A DNA stretch of 33,119 bases from Synechococcus sp. AG-670-A05 (GTDB lineage: Bacteria; Cyanobacteriota; Cyanobacteriia; PCC-6307; Cyanobiaceae): assembly GCA_003211535.1 (NCBI GenBank), contig QCSJ01000013.1:1-33119 (forward strand), in the 5' to 3' direction. The notes under the pieces are model-generated. The model searched no databases, was not told where the DNA came from, and saw nothing but the letters and a program-made list of their open reading frames with translations. A program made the translations under genes and the position numbers. Shown here in pieces: positions 515 to 14,111 of the stretch (position 1 is the stretch's first letter; every line of letters begins with the position of its first letter).

Positions 515-2260
515 TCAGTGAGTCTCAGGAAGTTGCGGGTCGAGCGTGGAACCAACGACCTCGGCCGGAGCCGTCTGATTGCGGTCGCGAATGGTGAGAC
601 AAGTGTGGAGCAGACCCTCATCGACGAGAGCTGCGTAGCGATCGGCGATGGCCTGGTTAACCCGTTGGCAATCAGCGATGGCCCGTTCCCGAGCTCCGGG
701 CACACGGCCTGAGTAGTCGAAACGCACCACAACCGGAATCGGCAGATCCCGGGACACATTCAGACCCTTAAAAATTTTCACGCCCACATCAAGATCAGGG
801 GCGCCCTCCTCGACGGTGTCGAGGTGGGCGAAATAAGTGAGGTTGCGCAGATGCACCTCTTTAAAGCCGATGCCAACGCCAATGAACCGCTCAGCGTGCC
901 CGGCATCGGGGTAAGTGCCCCCGTGCAGATCCTGCACGTAATCAATCTGGGAGAAGTTGTTTGCGAGCAACCGGGTCAGGAAAGACACCATCCCGGCATC
1001 CATGGGGCCAGGAGCAGAGCTCTCAACTGCTTCAGCAATCTGCGCCATCGCCTGATCAGCACTCATCGATGCCGTGGCTGCATGCAGTTCCCTGGCGCAA
1101 AGCCAATGGTTGAGAACCATTTCGCTGTCACGGCTTGGGGAGTGCACCCGGATCGCATCGGTGTCGGTGTCAAGGCCGATCAGCAAAAGATCAACGGAGG
1201 CACCGCAGCAGAAGCTGTTTTCCACCGACTCACGAAAGTCGAGCAGGCGCTGATGACCTGCCGCTGCCGCCAGTTCATCATTGCTGCCATGGGCAGCGCA
1301 GCCCTGGTGGGAGGGATCGAGAGAACTGAAGTGGTAGGTGACCACCTTTAGATAACGGGTCGGTTCGGAGGAGGGATTGGGTGAACCTTCTCGGTAGCGA
1401 CGATGCTCGGTTTTGACCCAGCGGTTCACCGTGTTCTCAACATCGAACATGGCGCCTGCGTGGGAGCGGCGACGCACAGCGCTGAAGGGAATGCGCAGGG
1501 CATAGGCCACGGTGTGGGCCAACCGACCATCGGCACAGGGCGTCAGATCGAGCAGATGAATTCCGCAGTCGAGCAGGAACTGTTCAAACTCTCTGGAGGC
1601 AGCACTGCCCGTGCCGGCATCCAGTGGGTCGTCCTGGAAGAAACGATCACTAAAGAGCCGGTGGCTTTCGAACACACACCAGGCGAACAGGGCGCGCATG
1701 TCAAGGGGGCGAACCCAGGCCCGCTGCAGGATGTGATCCGGCAGATCAAACCCGAGTTCGGTCCGGCACAACCGTTGGGCTTGGGGAATGAAATCGGTTT
1801 CGTGCTGGAGCGCTGAAACCTGCTGAAGCAGGGGAACGATCCGATCAAAACGTCCCTTGATCTCCTGCTCGTAAGCCTGAAGACGGGCGTTCGTCGCTGC
1901 ATCCGTAAGCGGATGGCGCAGATGGGTGATCGGCAGAGAACTGCGGCTCAGGTTGAAAGGAACCGCCCGGGTTGCTGCTTTCTCACGTCGTACCCAGCCC
2001 GGCTGAGACGAAGCTGGACGCCGGACATCCTTGATGGAGCGAATCCGGCCGTCGCCTACTGAGGCGGGACCCAGTTGAGCGGCCTTGCCCGAGGTGGTGA
2101 GGGCACGGCGCCGATCCAGAGCGGCCTGGCGTGTGGAGGACTCCAATTCAGACGTTGTCTGGGCTGAATTAGAAGTTGTGGCCAGCTGTTGAAGCTGACG
2201 ACGGGTGGGAGCCGAGGGGGCCTGGGGTCGCCCGCCACGGAGAGGCTTGGAGCGAACCAT
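515..2260 (-). CDS. csoSCA: Carboxysomal carbonic anhydrase CsoSCA (CsoS3)
   Basis: Carboxysome-lumen carbonic anhydrase that converts bicarbonate to CO2 for Rubisco (epsilon/beta-like class). With the ATG at 2260 the protein has 581 aa; a TTG directly upstream at 2263 could add one residue. The zinc site is visible: C242 in CADGR, H310 in YHFSS and C321 in GCAAHG, with the H-to-C spacing of 11 known for this family, and the catalytic Asp/Arg pair D244 and R246. Residues 1-90 are basic and probably disordered. Residues 48-59 (LDRRRALTTSGK) nearly copy the first N-terminal repeat of CsoS2 (LERRKALTTSGK), and the GDG-R-R-D-R pattern that follows is shared too, which suggests the same Rubisco-binding function. 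The csoS2 stop is 7 nt upstream. Confidence 0.97.
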   Translation of the reverse strand: MVRSKPLRGGRPQAPSAPTRRQLQQLATTSNSAQTTSELESSTRQAALDRRRALTTSGKAAQLGPASVGDGRIRSIKDVRRPASSQPGWVRREKAATRAVPFNLSRSSLPITHLRHPLTDAATNARLQAYEQEIKGRFDRIVPLLQQVSALQHETDFIPQAQRLCRTELGFDLPDHILQRAWVRPLDMRALFAWCVFESHRLFSDRFFQDDPLDAGTGSAASREFEQFLLDCGIHLLDLTPCADGRLAHTVAYALRIPFSAVRRRSHAGAMFDVENTVNRWVKTEHRRYREGSPNPSSEPTRYLKVVTYHFSSLDPSHQGCAAHGSNDELAAAAGHQRLLDFRESVENSFCCGASVDLLLIGLDTDTDAIRVHSPSRDSEMVLNHWLCARELHAATASMSADQAMAQIAEAVESSAPGPMDAGMVSFLTRLLANNFSQIDYVQDLHGGTYPDAGHAERFIGVGIGFKEVHLRNLTYFAHLDTVEEGAPDLDVGVKIFKGLNVSRDLPIPVVVRFDYSGRVPGARERAIADCQRVNQAIADRYAALVDEGLLHTCLTIRDRNQTAPAEVVGSTLDPQLPETH

Positions 2261-2267
2261 CAATGAA

Positions 2268-4628
2268 TTAGCCCCGTGCGCCGCCGGAGACGGTGATCAA
2301 GGAACCCTTCTCGGTGTTGCCGCTGGAGCCGGTCACGCGGCTCAAAGGCCATTCGGACTCCTCGTTGCGCTTGCGCTCGAAGGCAGACATGGCACTCATC
2401 GGGCCGGGACGGCTGGGGTTACGACGGCGGGCCGAAGCACCCTCAGTACCGGTCACGTGCTCACCACGGTCCCAGTCGTCACCGGTGATATTGGTGGAGG
2501 AACCCTCGCCGGTCACCCGGGATGCAGGCTTATCAGAGGGCTCACTGACCACAGCCACGGTGGGCTGGAACTGGCGCTGCTGACGGTTTTGGAACTCGCG
2601 GTTGTCGAAGCGGAACTGCTCGGTACCGGTCACCTTGCCGCCAGCCATGTCAAAAGGGCCGGTGATGCGATTCCCCTGTTCATAGGAGGTGCCAGTCACG
2701 CCGGCATTGGCCTCACGTTGCTGCTGGGCAGCACGGGCAGGAGACACCACGCTGAAGCGGGTCCAGGCAGCGCCCTCAGGGGCTTGACCGTGGGTGTCGG
2801 TGCCAGCAGGGGCATCAGCGCCGCAAGCAGCGGCCAGCTGATCGGCACCCACGTAAGGCGTGCCGGTGACCGCTTCACAAGCACCACGCTTGTCGCCGGT
2901 CATCACACCACCCACACCAGGTTGGATGCCAGTCATGGCAGCAGAAGGAGTGCCAACACGCACGGGGGTGCGCTCACGGATGGACTGCACGGCGGGAGTT
3001 CCGCAGTGTTGACCAGCCTGCTCAAGACCTGCATACGGGGTGCCGGTAACGGCCTGGCAACTGCCGGGCTCATCGCCAGTCACACGCTCCGAACGACCGG
3101 TGCGGGTGCCGCTCACAACCTGATTGCGGTTAGTGACGCTGAAACCAACCTTGGCTGCTTCGGGTTCGGGCTTGAAGCCACAGAAGGCATTCACCTGCTC
3201 GGCACTTATGTATTGATCACCAGTAACGCGCTGGCAGGAGCCGAACTCATCGCCAGTGACCTGAGCCGAGCGGCCCACCATTGTGCCCGTCACACCAGTG
3301 CCCGAAAGGGTTCCGGACAGACCCACCTTGGCGGCCGGTCGACCTTCGGGCAGGGGATCCGAACCAAGATATTGATCACCGGTGAGGCTGCGGTTGGCGC
3401 CGGCTTCATCACCGGTGACGCTGGCAGAGCGACCGACCATCACACCGCTCACAGGACGACCCTGTTCGGTGAGACTTAGGCCAACCTTGCGCGGGGAGCT
3501 CACGCCACTACCGCAGTAGGCAGCGGATTGATTGGCTGAGATGTACTCGGTGCCGGTCACGCTCTTGCAGGTGCCGGGCTCATCGCCGGTGACCTTTTCG
3601 GAACGGCCAACTTCATTGCCGGTAACGCGGTTGCCATGACTGGTGGCGGTGACGCGAACCTTGGCCGGAGTGGTGGAAGCGGGAGCGGTCTGACAGAAGG
3701 TCTGGAAGACTTCAGCACCCAGGTACTCGGTACCGGTAATGGAACGGCAGGTGCTGGCTTCATTGCCGGTGGTTTTCACCGAGCGATTCGCTTGGGTGCC
3801 TGTCACAGTCTGGCCTGCCGTGGTGGTGCTTTCACCCACTTTCCAGTGGGCATCAGCGGCCGCAGCTTGCTTGGCGCCGTGACGGTTGGGACCGGTGGGG
3901 CGGGTCACACCAGCGCTTTGCTTGTTGCGGGCGCCGGCCTTGGTGCGCAGTTCACGCACCTGTTGGGCCAGCTCACGGCTGGTGAGATCAGGGTTGGCCT
4001 GACGGGCAACTGCAGCTGCACTGGTGGGTTGCTTGCCAGCGGTTTTGCCGTGCTTCGCCATGGCCTCACGACGGGCTAAAACCAGCGCACGGCTGGGGTT
4101 CTCGATGGCACGACGCTTGGGGGTTGCCGAACGACGCTCCGAACGGGCAGAAAACATTGGTGCCGGTGCACTAACGGCAGCCTTCTCGACAGCACGCTTG
4201 CCACCGCAGCCACAGCTCTTGGTGATTTCTGTGGACGCAGCGGCAGGGGCAGGGGCTTTGGTCTGGCGGGCAACATCAGCGCGGTTGCGATCGCGGCTGG
4301 TGTCGGCTGTCTTGCCGCGGCGAGCCAGAGCATCACGACGGGCGAGCACCAATTCGCGGCTGGGGTCGCGATGCGGCTTGACCTTGGAGCTGCGGTTTGA
4401 AGGAGCAGCTGTGAAGGACGTGGTCCGCTGAGGAGTTACAACAGCGGGGGTGGCAGGTGCTGAGGCAGGCTCAGCAGCTGGTGCCGCATTGGTGCGGGTG
4501 GGACGTGCATCAGCAACGGTGCGAACACGGTTGGCGCCATCACCAGCCGCTACCGAGGACTTCTTACCGGAAGTGGTCAGCGCCTTTCGGCGTTCAAGTG
4601 CGAGTTCGCGACTGGAGAGTCTTGCCAT
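2268..4628 (-). CDS. csoS2: Carboxysome assembly scaffold CsoS2
   Basis: This 786-aa intrinsically disordered scaffold links Rubisco to the shell during alpha-carboxysome assembly. Domains: N-terminal region with four Rubisco-binding repeats at about residues 6-24, 89-108, 178-197 and 216-235 (pattern SRELxLxRRxALxxxGK); a middle region of six M repeats at about 263-312, 323-372, 381-426, 434-483, 493-542 and 557-602 built around VTGDE/VTGT(E/P)Y blocks; and a C-terminal region 623-786 with further VTG motifs ending in a short hydrophobic peptide LITVSGGARG. Five M repeats carry a cysteine pair exactly 18 residues apart (294/312, 354/372, 465/483, 524/542, 584/602); the third has none. A CGC motif lies at 139-141. 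I saw no convincing frameshift site, so only the long form is predicted. Confidence 0.97.
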   Translation of the reverse strand: MARLSSRELALERRKALTTSGKKSSVAAGDGANRVRTVADARPTRTNAAPAAEPASAPATPAVVTPQRTTSFTAAPSNRSSKVKPHRDPSRELVLARRDALARRGKTADTSRDRNRADVARQTKAPAPAAASTEITKSCGCGGKRAVEKAAVSAPAPMFSARSERRSATPKRRAIENPSRALVLARREAMAKHGKTAGKQPTSAAAVARQANPDLTSRELAQQVRELRTKAGARNKQSAGVTRPTGPNRHGAKQAAAADAHWKVGESTTTAGQTVTGTQANRSVKTTGNEASTCRSITGTEYLGAEVFQTFCQTAPASTTPAKVRVTATSHGNRVTGNEVGRSEKVTGDEPGTCKSVTGTEYISANQSAAYCGSGVSSPRKVGLSLTEQGRPVSGVMVGRSASVTGDEAGANRSLTGDQYLGSDPLPEGRPAAKVGLSGTLSGTGVTGTMVGRSAQVTGDEFGSCQRVTGDQYISAEQVNAFCGFKPEPEAAKVGFSVTNRNQVVSGTRTGRSERVTGDEPGSCQAVTGTPYAGLEQAGQHCGTPAVQSIRERTPVRVGTPSAAMTGIQPGVGGVMTGDKRGACEAVTGTPYVGADQLAAACGADAPAGTDTHGQAPEGAAWTRFSVVSPARAAQQQREANAGVTGTSYEQGNRITGPFDMAGGKVTGTEQFRFDNREFQNRQQRQFQPTVAVVSEPSDKPASRVTGEGSSTNITGDDWDRGEHVTGTEGASARRRNPSRPGPMSAMSAFERKRNEESEWPLSRVTGSSGNTEKGSLITVSGGARG

Positions 4629-4720: not shown

Positions 4721-4744
4721 TTCGAAGGATCAGCGTCCTTCGAA
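4721..4744 (-). promoter_or_regulatory. Perfect 9-bp hairpin enclosing the rbcS stop codon
   Basis: The arms TTCGAAGGA (4744-4736 on the minus strand) and TCCTTCGAA (4729-4721) are perfectly complementary, separated by the 6-nt loop CGCTGA, which holds the last sense codon and the TGA stop of rbcS. It is probably a mRNA 3'-end stabilising or processing element that forms after ribosomes leave. No T tract follows directly. A second hairpin with a T5 tract lies a few bases downstream. Confidence 0.6.
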
Positions 4745-5071
4745 GACCACGAAGCAGGCACCCTGGCTTTGGGTGTAGGCGTCGTAACCGACGATGCGCA
4801 CGTGGTGGTCGGGGTATGCGCGATGGCAAGCCTCGAGCTCACTGACAACGACGTTCAGATCCTTCTCACCGAAGAAGGGGAGCTTCCAATACGACCAGTA
4901 GGTGGCCATGGAGTTACTGGGGTGGACGTGCTCGACGAGCGGGCTCCAACCCTGGGCAATGATGTACGCGATCTGGTCATAGATCTCGTCCTGGGTCATC
5001 GGCGGAAGAAAGCCGAAGGTCTCCAGGGTGGCGACTGTTTGGTAGTCACCCACGGTGCTTTGGAAAGGCAT
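4730..5071 (-). CDS. rbcS: Rubisco small subunit, form IA
   Basis: The 113-aa small subunit (also called cbbS) caps the L8S8 Rubisco. It begins MPFQSTVGDYQTVATLETFG and contains the family block GWSPLVEHVHPSNSMATYWS and WKLPFFGE, then a conserved C-terminal YPDHHVRIVGYDA. The length and the lack of the long beta-A/beta-B insertion fit the proteobacterial-type form IA of alpha-cyanobacteria. It lies 58 nt downstream of rbcL in the same operon. An AGGA about 7 nt upstream of the ATG is a plausible ribosome-binding site. The stop codon is inside a perfect hairpin loop. Confidence 0.98.
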   Translation of the reverse strand: MPFQSTVGDYQTVATLETFGFLPPMTQDEIYDQIAYIIAQGWSPLVEHVHPSNSMATYWSYWKLPFFGEKDLNVVVSELEACHRAYPDHHVRIVGYDAYTQSQGACFVVFEGR

Positions 5072-5129: not shown

Positions 5130-6545
5130 TCAGTTCTGAACGTCGAGCTTGTCGACGGTGTCGAATTCGAACTTGATCTCCTTCCAGGTCTCGAGGGCGA
5201 TGGCCAGCTCAGGGCTGTGCTTACCGGCTTCCATGAGGATGTCGCGGCTCTCTTTCTCGAGATGACGGCCGGCGTTGCGTGCCTTGACGCAAGCCTCAAG
5301 GGCCACACGGTTGGCAGCAGCTCCTGCAGCGGAGCCCCAGGGGTGACCGTGGGTACCACCACCGAACTGAAGAACGGAGTCGTCGCCGAAGATGGTGACC
5401 AGGGCGGGCATGTGCCACACATGGATACCGCCGGAAGCAACGGCGAATACACCAGGCATGGAACCCCAGTCCTGATCAAAGAAGTTGCCGCGGCTGCGGT
5501 CTTCGGGCACGAAGGATTCGCGCAGCTGGTCTATGTAGCCGAGGGTGGTCTGACGATCACCTTCCAGCTTTCCGACCACGGTGCCGGTGTGGAGCTGGTC
5601 ACCACCGGACAGACGCAGACACTTGGCGAGAACGCGGAAGTGAATGCCGTGCTTGGGGTGACGGTCGATCACCGCATGCATGGCGCGGTGGATGTGCAGC
5701 AACATGCCGTTCTTGCGGCACCACTTCGACAGACCGGTGTTGGCCGTGAAGCCACCGGTAATGAAGTCGTGCATGATGATCGGCATGCCGAGTTCTTTAG
5801 CGAACTCAGCGCGCTCGTACATCTCCTCGGGAGTGTTGGCGGTCACGTTGAGGTAGTGACCCTTGCGCTCGCCGGTCTCTTGCTCGGACAGCTTGATGGC
5901 TTCTGCAACGAATTCGAAGCGGTTCTGCCAACGCTGGAAAGGCTGGGAGTTGATGTTCTCGTCGTCCTTGGTGAAGTCCAGACCGCCGCGCAGGCACTCA
6001 TAGACAACACGGCCGTAGTTCTTACCGCTCAGGCCGAGCTTCGGCTTGATGGTGCAACCCAACAGAGGACGGCCGTACTTGTTCATCCGGTCGCGCTCGA
6101 CCTGGATCCCGTTCGGCGGGCCGTAGCAGCTCTTGATGAACGCCATCGGGAAGCGGATGTCTTCCAGACGGAGGTGGCGCAGGGCCTTGAAGCCAAACAC
6201 GTTGCCGACCAGGGAAGTCAGAACGTTGGTGATGGAACCCTCTTCGAAAAGGTCGAGGGGGTAGGCGATGAAGGCGTAGAAGGACTCCTTGTCACCAGGG
6301 ACGTCCTCGATGCGGTAACAACGGCCCTTGTAGAAGTCGAGATCGGTGAGGAGCTCGGACCAAACAGTGGACCAGGTGCCGGTGGAGGATTCAGCAGCCA
6401 CAGCAGCTGCGACTTCTTCCTTGGGCACACCTTCCTGGCCGGTGCACTTGAAGCAGGCCAGCAGGTCGGTGTCGAGGGGGACGTAATCAGGAGTCCAGTA
6501 AGTGTCCCTGTACTCCTTGACCCCAGCGTCGTACTTCTTGCTCAT
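5130..6545 (-). CDS. rbcL: Rubisco large subunit, form IA
   Basis: This 471-aa catalytic subunit of ribulose-1,5-bisphosphate carboxylase (also cbbL) fixes CO2 in the carboxysome lumen. The active-site blocks are intact: K167 in TIKPKLGLS, the carbamylated lysine K193 with metal ligands D195 and E196 in [10 protein letters not shown], the HIHRAMHAV histidine block, and the SGG and [11 protein letters not shown] phosphate-binding blocks. The sequence is of the proteobacterial-like form IA that defines alpha-cyanobacteria. The start ATG at 6545 has GGAG 7 nt upstream. It follows csoS1 by 74 nt and precedes rbcS by 58 nt, so Rubisco is the second and third product of the carboxysome operon. Confidence 0.99.
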
Positions 6546-9171: not shown

Positions 9172-10506
<1,335 letters not shown>

Positions 10507-10510
10507 CGCC

Positions 10511-12085
10511 ATGGACCTGACCCTCTGGACCTACGAAGGACCACCCCACGTGGGCGCCATGCGCATCGCCGCCTCGATGGAAGGGGTCCACTACGTGCTG
10601 CATGCGCCGCAGGGGGACACCTACGCCGACCTGTTGTTCACCATGATCGAGCGACGCGGTCAGCGCCCACCGGTGACGTACACCACCTTTCAGGCCCGGG
10701 ACCTGGGGGGCGACACGGCCGAACTGGTGAAGCGCCACGTACGGGAAGCAGTGGACCGGTTCCAACCCGATGCGCTGCTGGTTGGGGAAAGCTGCACGGC
10801 GGAACTGATCCAGGATCAACCCGGTGCCCTGGCGCAGGGCATGGGATTGACCATGCCGGTGGTGAGCCTTGAGCTGCCGGCTTACAGCAAAAAGGAGAAC
10901 TGGGGGGCTGCTGAGACCTTCTATCAATTGGTGCGCAACCTGCTCAAAGCGCAGGCGCCAGTCAACAGCGAGCACGACCCCAAGGCCTGGCAACAACAGG
11001 GGCGCCGGCCGCGGGTGAATCTGCTCGGCCCGTCCCTGCTCGGATTCCGCTGCCGCGATGACGTCCTTGAAGTGCAGACGCTGCTCACCATGCACGGCAT
11101 CGATGTAGCTGTGGTCGCCCCCCTCGGTGCGGGGGTCGACGATCTCCAACGCATCCCCGATGCCGACCTCAACATCTGCCTATATCCGGAGGTAGCTGAT
11201 TCCACCTGCAGCTGGCTGGAACGCAATTTCGGCATGCCCTTCACCCGCACGGTGCCGATCGGCGTCGGCGCCACCCACGACTTCCTCATTGAGGTGCACA
11301 CCGCCCTGGGACTGGAACCTCCATCGCCGAAGGAGGGTTATCGCCGCTCACGCCTGCCCTGGTACTCGGAATCGGTGGACTCCACCTATCTCACCGGTAA
11401 GCGGGTGTTCATCTTTGGCGATGGCAGCCATGCCATTGCTGCCGCTCGCATCTGCACTGAGGAGCTGGGCTTCCAAGTGGTAGGGCTGGGCACCTACAGC
11501 CGTGAGATGGCTCGTCCAATCAGGGCCGCCGCTAAGGCCCTGGGACTGGAGGCCCTGATCTGTGACGACTATCTGGCCGTTGAAGCCGCCATGGCCGAGG
11601 CGGCTCCGGAACTGGTGCTGGGCACCCAGATGGAACGTCACGGCGCCAAGCGACTCGGAATTCCCTGCGCAGTAATCAGCACACCAATGCATGTTCAGGA
11701 CGTGCCGGCACGAATGAGTCCTCAGATGGGCTGGGAAGGGGCCAATGTGATTTTCGACAGCTGGGTCCACCCGCTGATGATGGGGCTAGAAGAACACCTG
11801 ATCGGCATGTTCCGCCACGACTTTGAATTTGTGGATGGCCACCAGAGCCATCTTGGCCATGCCGGTGGATCAGGAGCCACCAAGCACAGCGACTTGTGCG
11901 ACGTCCCCGAGGTTGGCGAGGACGACGTGGTTTGGACCGCTGATGGAGAAGAGGAACTGCGGAAGATTCCTTTTTTCGTGCGTGGAAAAGTTCGCCGCAA
12001 CGCTGAGGCCTATGCCCGACAGGTGGGCTGCCGGGAAATCAGCAGCGAAACGCTCTATGACGCAAAAGCCCACTACAAAGCATGA
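10511..12085 (+). CDS. chlB: Light-independent protochlorophyllide reductase subunit B
   Basis: This 524-aa subunit of DPOR starts [20 protein letters not shown]. The unusual aspartate ligand of the inter-subunit [4Fe-4S] cluster is D36 in [12 protein letters not shown], and the aspartate implicated in proton donation to the substrate is D290 in [11 protein letters not shown]. The GESCTAELI block (C95) and the ferredoxin-reductase-like C-terminal DPOR domain (about 470-520, [19 protein letters not shown]) are intact. It is 4 bp downstream of chlN. chlL follows on the same strand after 151 bp, so the reductase ATPase may have its own promoter. Confidence 0.98.
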
Positions 12086-12236
12086 GCAAATTCACTTAAT
12101 TCTTTTCAGTTGACCAATAGAAATTCTGGAGCATCGCCATGCGTTGACATTCAGATCTTTCATTTCTTGGTGAAACACAGCCAGCCCTCATCTGTTGATG
12201 TTGAATGAACCCATCTCCTCTTGTGAAGGTCGCTGA

Positions 12237-14111
<1,875 letters not shown>

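Follow-up and report, generated by a model that had tools for sequence, protein, structure and literature searches.

We found that the carboxysomal carbonic anhydrase CsoSCA of marine Synechococcus carries, in its N-terminal tail, an element whose sequence supports its assignment as a CsoS2-type N repeat, related specifically to the repeat N1 of the scaffold. The motif is nearly fixed in two Synechococcus genera and kept by purifying selection; in the scanned genomes it occurs in CsoS2 and CsoSCA only. The explanation that we favor, and hold with considerable confidence, is that this CsoS2-N1-derived SLiM would dock CsoSCA on the conserved groove of Rubisco, in addition to the ancestral PTAPxRR element. 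The core observation is not new since the motif had been noted before in 'a handful' of CsoSCAs by Blikstad et al. 2023 (PMC10614612), who suggested an evolutionary link; the passage of that paper dealing with it assigns these sequences to Prochlorococcus. The original prediction, made from the DNA sequence, had overlooked this remark.

The window, by which we mean the whole stretch of 33,119 nucleotides that was analysed, contains an alpha-carboxysome operon on its minus strand with cbbL, cbbS, csoS2, csoSCA and csoS4A (Table 1). The encoded CsoSCA is above the cut-offs of PF20687, PF20686, PF08936 and TIGR02701 (N-, catalytic and C-terminal domains), and a gap of only a few bases separates the csoS2 stop codon from the csoSCA start. 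Beyond the carboxysome genes, positions 9172-14081 of the window hold chlN-, chlB- and chlL-like genes (dark protochlorophyllide reductase) together with a light-dependent protochlorophyllide reductase-like gene, all named by eye from their translations.

Table 1. Positions in the window of the carboxysome genes and of the sequence elements discussed in the text
Feature	Position	Strand	Basis
csoSCA, carboxysomal beta-carbonic anhydrase, 581 aa (stop included)	515..2260	-	Pfam CsoSCA_N/cat/C and TIGR02701
QPGWVRR, CsoSCA residues 86-92, conserved element adjoining the module	1985..2005	-	dN/dS of the region 0.14
CsoSCA residues 41-95, colinear with CsoS2 positions 4-57	1976..2140	-	NCBIfam NF050159 match, E 9.6e-6
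Module tail in CsoSCA, residues 71-81, GRIRSIKDVRR, matching RVRTVADAR after CsoS2 N1	2018..2050	-	tail-only profile
CsoS2-type N-repeat motif in CsoSCA, residues 44-59, RQAALDRRRALTTSGK	2084..2131	-	fits RxxxxxRRxxxxxxGK
PSAPTRR, CsoSCA residues 15-21, variant of PTAPx[R/K]R, an element that most cyanobacterial CsoSCAs have	2198..2218	-	
csoS2, carboxysome scaffold, 786 aa	2268..4628	-	NF050159 1261 bits; Pfam CsoS2_M
Fourth N-repeat-like CsoS2 segment, degenerate, SRELAQQVRELRTKAG	3933..3980	-	by eye; fails the strict motif
CsoS2 repeat N3, RALVLARREAMAKHGK	4044..4091	-	
CsoS2 repeat N2, RELVLARRDALARRGK	4311..4358	-	
RVRTVADAR tail behind CsoS2 N1	4503..4529	-	
CsoS2 repeat N1, residues 7-22, RELALERRKALTTSGK, nearest relative of the CsoSCA motif	4563..4610	-	profile comparison
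cbbS, Rubisco small subunit; Y99 and D97 are counterparts of Halothiobacillus Y96 and D94	4730..5071	-	
cbbL, Rubisco large subunit; F71 (6335-6333) at the place of Halothiobacillus Y72	5130..6545	-	

The identity of 10 out of 12 residues on which the original prediction was built holds when LDRRRALTTSGK (CsoSCA residues 48-59, window 2119-2084) is aligned with LERRKALTTSGK (CsoS2 residues 11-22). The start of the motif had been overlooked, and adding four residues in front gives a full 16-mer, RQAALDRRRALTTSGK, that shares 12 of 16 residues with N1 (RELALERRKALTTSGK). The two 16-mers conform to RxxxxxRRxxxxxxGK, which Blikstad et al. 2023 (PMC10614612) cite as the pattern by which CsoS2 binds Rubisco. 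To estimate how often such a match arises by chance, we shuffled the 113-residue tail of CsoSCA itself: 131 of 200,000 shuffles contained the strict pattern, and none of 20,000 had an identity to N1 above 10/16.

To score the motif, we generated a profile covering CsoS2 N1 and the tail behind it exclusively from genomes whose CsoSCA is motif-less. The CsoSCA of the window scores 36.3 bits with this profile and the median over the 57 motif-bearing CsoSCAs is 37.2 bits, while 1,114 shuffles reach at most 7.8 bits and non-motif CsoSCAs at most 5.9 bits. Profiles of the other repeats yield medians of 10.4 bits (N2) and 8.9 bits (N3) on the same motif-bearing CsoSCAs, far below the roughly 37 bits of N1, and we reject an origin from either. 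Two libraries that were not built for this analysis agree with the N1 profile. The curated NCBI model of CsoS2 (NF050159) aligns its positions 4-57 with CsoSCA residues 41-95 in all 23 marine Synechococcus proteins and in 0 of 27 controls, and a phmmer search with the CsoSCA 49-mer against the PDB (177,635 sequences) returns residues 5-44 of Prochlorococcus MED4 CsoS2 as its best match (E 0.011). Against the full-length CsoS2 model the CsoSCA of the window scores 24.7 bits for a cut-off of 1100, only the N-terminal 55 residues being in common.

The 16-mer is followed in both proteins by a shared tail. Of the continuation GDG-x-R-[VI]-R-[TS] that had been claimed for both, the R[VI]R[TS]xxD part is indeed common but the GDG is not. 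The GDG lies two residues before RVR in CsoS2 and immediately before RIR in CsoSCA, and CsoSCA relatives mostly have GGG, AGG or SGG at that place; being out of register and unconserved, it is coincidental and we do not count it as part of the common element. With a profile of the tail only, CsoSCAs have a median of 6.0 bits and 63 % of the tails are above the 99th percentile of shuffles (3.9 bits); the tail of the window itself is weak (1.2 bits). Among 23 relatives R72 and R74 are invariant and D78 is nearly so.

A short Rubisco-binding motif might also have come to resemble N1 by convergence instead of common descent. Short linear motifs converge easily, and the Halothiobacillus CsoSCA reached the same Rubisco site with an unrelated peptide (PMC10614612). 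We nevertheless disfavor this explanation and give it very little credence: the match is specific to N1 rather than to N2 or N3 and includes the non-defining positions ALTT, the R[VI]R[TS]xxD tail stands at about the same distance in both proteins, and the NCBI CsoS2 model is colinear with CsoSCA across 55 residues.

The relationship with N1 is not a recent one. As originally proposed, the two genes mostly spell the motif differently, with 9 of the 12 residues encoded by different codons and 3 by identical ones compared to the 4.5 expected from codon usage. Nucleotide similarity between csoS2 and csoSCA is 0.625 within genomes and 0.635 between genomes, and gene conversion is thus rejected. 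Together, the differing codons and a within-genome similarity that does not exceed the between-genome value leave no sign of recent copying or conversion. In 23 relatives, dN/dS is 0.095 for the motif, 0.069 for the folded domain and 0.63 for the adjoining linker, with intermediate values in the PTAP region (0.26) and the QPGWVRR region (0.14) of the tail. The five residues that define the pattern (R44, R50, R51, G58 and K59) are invariant in these relatives. The view of the motif as old and selected is borne out by these results.

We found the motif in 57 of 146 distinct CsoSCAs. When about 400 genomes of the family were searched with a CsoSCA-derived profile, the CsoSCA copy was seen, among the matches listed, only in the genus of the window (g1) and in one further genus (g34), and the remaining listed matches fall in CsoS2. 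The motif is absent from every CsoSCA extracted from the other genera, although weak copies may exist elsewhere. Cyanobium-type CsoSCAs are without it, as are all 53 loci of the Prochlorococcus clade, where the tails that were read are short and leave no room for the motif. A CsoSCA-length match in a third genus (g9) was rejected because it is a CsoS2 cut by the contig end. In the scan of 17 whole genomes, strong matches were confined to CsoS2 (three) and CsoSCA (one), and nothing outside these two proteins had an E value better than 0.0027.

Absence from close relatives had been set beforehand as the observation that would count against the proposal; we found that nearly all relatives in both genera carry the motif. 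Three of their genomes have lost it. In G162 (locus L171) the motif is gone and the RVRS tail is kept, while in G193 and G181 (loci L159 and L160) a clean gap separates PTAPTRRQLQ from QPAW[IV]RR. These three loci represent useful natural motif-less controls. A tree of CsoSCA does not reject a single marine Synechococcus clade (AU p 0.48); in the free tree, one gain followed by a loss in Prochlorococcus or two gains fit equally well. Most simply, the motif was acquired once in the ancestor of marine Synechococcus.

The tail of CsoSCA contains other conserved elements. PSAPTRR is a second candidate Rubisco element in the CsoSCA of the window that had been overlooked earlier. On the other side of the module, R92 of QPGWVRR is invariant in the 23 relatives and Q86, P87, W89 and V90 are conserved in at least 90 % of them; this element, which lies behind the module and ahead of the folded domain, is kept in the form QPAWVRR even in CsoSCAs with the motif deleted. 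Two unusual tails were observed. In locus L156 (G267) the 20-residue RNGRPQAPSRRQLRQNQDRS, which holds a PTAP-type element, is present twice, on either side of the CsoS2-type motif, which suggests that the second candidate Rubisco element was duplicated internally not long ago. In locus L169 (G239) the linker between motif and domain is enlarged by tandem TSNRQ copies, resulting in an unusually long tail.

It is conceivable that PTAPxRR is the main recruiter and that the motif binds Rubisco as an accessory sticker, the helix adding avidity or tuning the number or position of particles. PTAPx[R/K]R was proposed in 2023 as a general cyanobacterial and possibly Rubisco-binding motif (PMC10614612), an AP-x-[R/K] element is found in 57 of 57 motif-bearing and 85 of 89 motif-less CsoSCAs, and the three motif-loss genomes retain PTAPTRRQLQ. 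Conversely, the motif is under tighter constraint than the PTAP region (dN/dS of 0.095 compared to 0.26) and the role of PTAPxRR is itself putative. We regard this accessory role as a real possibility, well short of an even chance.

The residues of Rubisco that would receive the motif are for the most part conserved. At the positions that form the Halothiobacillus site, the window has F71 (for Y72) and D98 (for D99) in CbbL and D97 (for D94) and Y99 (for Y96) in CbbS. The CbbS tyrosine is kept in 122 of 122 loci. Halothiobacillus CbbL Y72 has been described as conserved in alpha-carboxysome Rubisco; the position is F in all 57 alpha-cyanobacterial loci readable there, and this pattern is common to all alpha-cyanobacteria checked, motif-bearing or not. 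This substitution retains the aromatic ring for cation-pi stacking and removes the hydroxyl that the Halothiobacillus CsoSCA contacts, which would favor the CsoS2-type mode of binding.

Alternatively, the basic helix may touch shell proteins or some other partner instead of Rubisco. In a peptide array, not only Rubisco but also CsoS1 and CsoS1D produced signals with the N-repeat regions of CsoS2 (PMC4499774), and the Halothiobacillus CsoSCA associates with shell protein (PMC12646314). The N repeats are nevertheless the established Rubisco-binding part of CsoS2, and the contacts between CsoSCA and the shell have been termed nonspecific, no particular peptide having been defined for them (PMC12646314); we consider a shell partner improbable.

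Taken together, these results suggest that CsoSCA is probably drawn into the carboxysome by the sticker of the scaffold, because its tail carries an old copy of the N1 motif. In the docking reading that we favor, the ancestor of marine Synechococcus would have gained in its csoSCA a stretch with homology to the ~55 initial codons of csoS2 (N1 and the RVR[TS]xxD tail). The RxxxxxRRxxxxxxGK helix would most likely dock where the CsoS2 N repeats do, in the groove that two CbbL and one CbbS create, and the hexameric anhydrase, with at most 6 motif copies per particle, would be recruited into the Rubisco-CsoS2 assembly during carboxysome formation. The older PTAPxRR element may act alongside as the main or a second contact. 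We observed the homology, the distribution, the selection, the confinement to CsoS2 and CsoSCA in the scanned genomes and the conservation of most site residues checked; we infer Rubisco binding, its site and mode, and a role in encapsulation. The motif cannot be the sole route into the carboxysome since three genomes have lost it and the CsoSCAs of Prochlorococcus and Cyanobium type are without it.

Several observations count against docking. CsoSCA has one copy of the repeat compared to three strict copies in CsoS2, and a single copy means low valency except via the hexamer. An acidic position 2 is a trait of CsoS2 N repeats (PMC4499774), and this position is Q in the CsoSCA of the window; D or E is found there in 5 of 57 CsoSCA motifs compared to 106 of 123 CsoS2 N1, CsoSCA usually having S, Q, K, A or G. 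The match of the CsoSCA tail in the window is weak, as mentioned above. AF2 (23 sequences) predicts helices at residues 43-55 (the motif) and 20-27 (behind PSAPT) in an otherwise unstructured tail with low confidence (pLDDT ~43), as would be expected for a helix that forms upon binding, yet this is no proof of one.

The original prediction inferred that scaffold and anhydrase compete for or share the same groove. In Halothiobacillus, CsoSCA and CsoS2 compete for one site, yet CsoSCA joins Rubisco-CsoS2 condensates, and the authors argue that binding sites are in surplus (PMC10614612). Because of this surplus, sharing appears likelier than limiting competition. More tentatively, the anhydrase may have taken the first sticker of the scaffold by partial duplication of csoS2, the hexamer with its six stickers plus PTAPxRR acting as a Rubisco-crosslinking co-scaffold that draws on one pool of sites with CsoS2; we think this broader reading possible but would not bet on it. 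If true, it would be a bacterial counterpart of the common Rubisco-binding motif of pyrenoids.

Marine Synechococcus are a major group of ocean primary producers. The Halothiobacillus peptide is unconserved, and the CsoSCA motif is a testable candidate targeting signal for cyanobacterial alpha-carboxysomes as well as a possible tag for loading enzymes into them. The case illustrates how a client may acquire its address from the adjoining scaffold gene, and the natural losses in a few strains will help testing.

Compared to the CsoSCAs of Blikstad et al. 2023 (PMC10614612), the motif and its host protein are the same. The difference is that the passage in question speaks of a handful in Prochlorococcus, whereas we found it nearly throughout two Synechococcus genera and in none of 53 Prochlorococcus-clade loci, and traced it to N1; our additions are the near-fixed scope, the N1 origin with its tail, the constraint, the exclusivity and the identifiable losses. 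With the CsoS2 N repeats (PDB 6UEW; Oltrogge 2020 as cited in PMC10614612), the motif shares the 16-residue pattern, a predicted helix and an N1-like sequence with an RVR[TS]xxD tail; it differs in being single, in an enzyme rather than a scaffold, and usually non-acidic at position 2. In Halothiobacillus, encapsulation of CsoSCA requires its tail, which binds to Rubisco where CsoS2 does (PMC10614612). The peptide PRLDLIEQA of this CsoSCA (H. neapolitanus, PDB 7SMK) likewise sits in a disordered N-terminal tail, and an overlapping Rubisco site is expected. The sequence is, however, unrelated, as the original prediction had correctly stated, and its deeper, hydrogen-bonded mode contacts the hydroxyl of Y72 where alpha-cyanobacterial CbbL has F. 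Finally, the Rubisco-binding motifs of pyrenoids (EPYC1 and others, cited in PMC10614612) are also a case of one motif common to scaffold and client, but they are eukaryotic, of another sequence and bind another site, on the small subunit.
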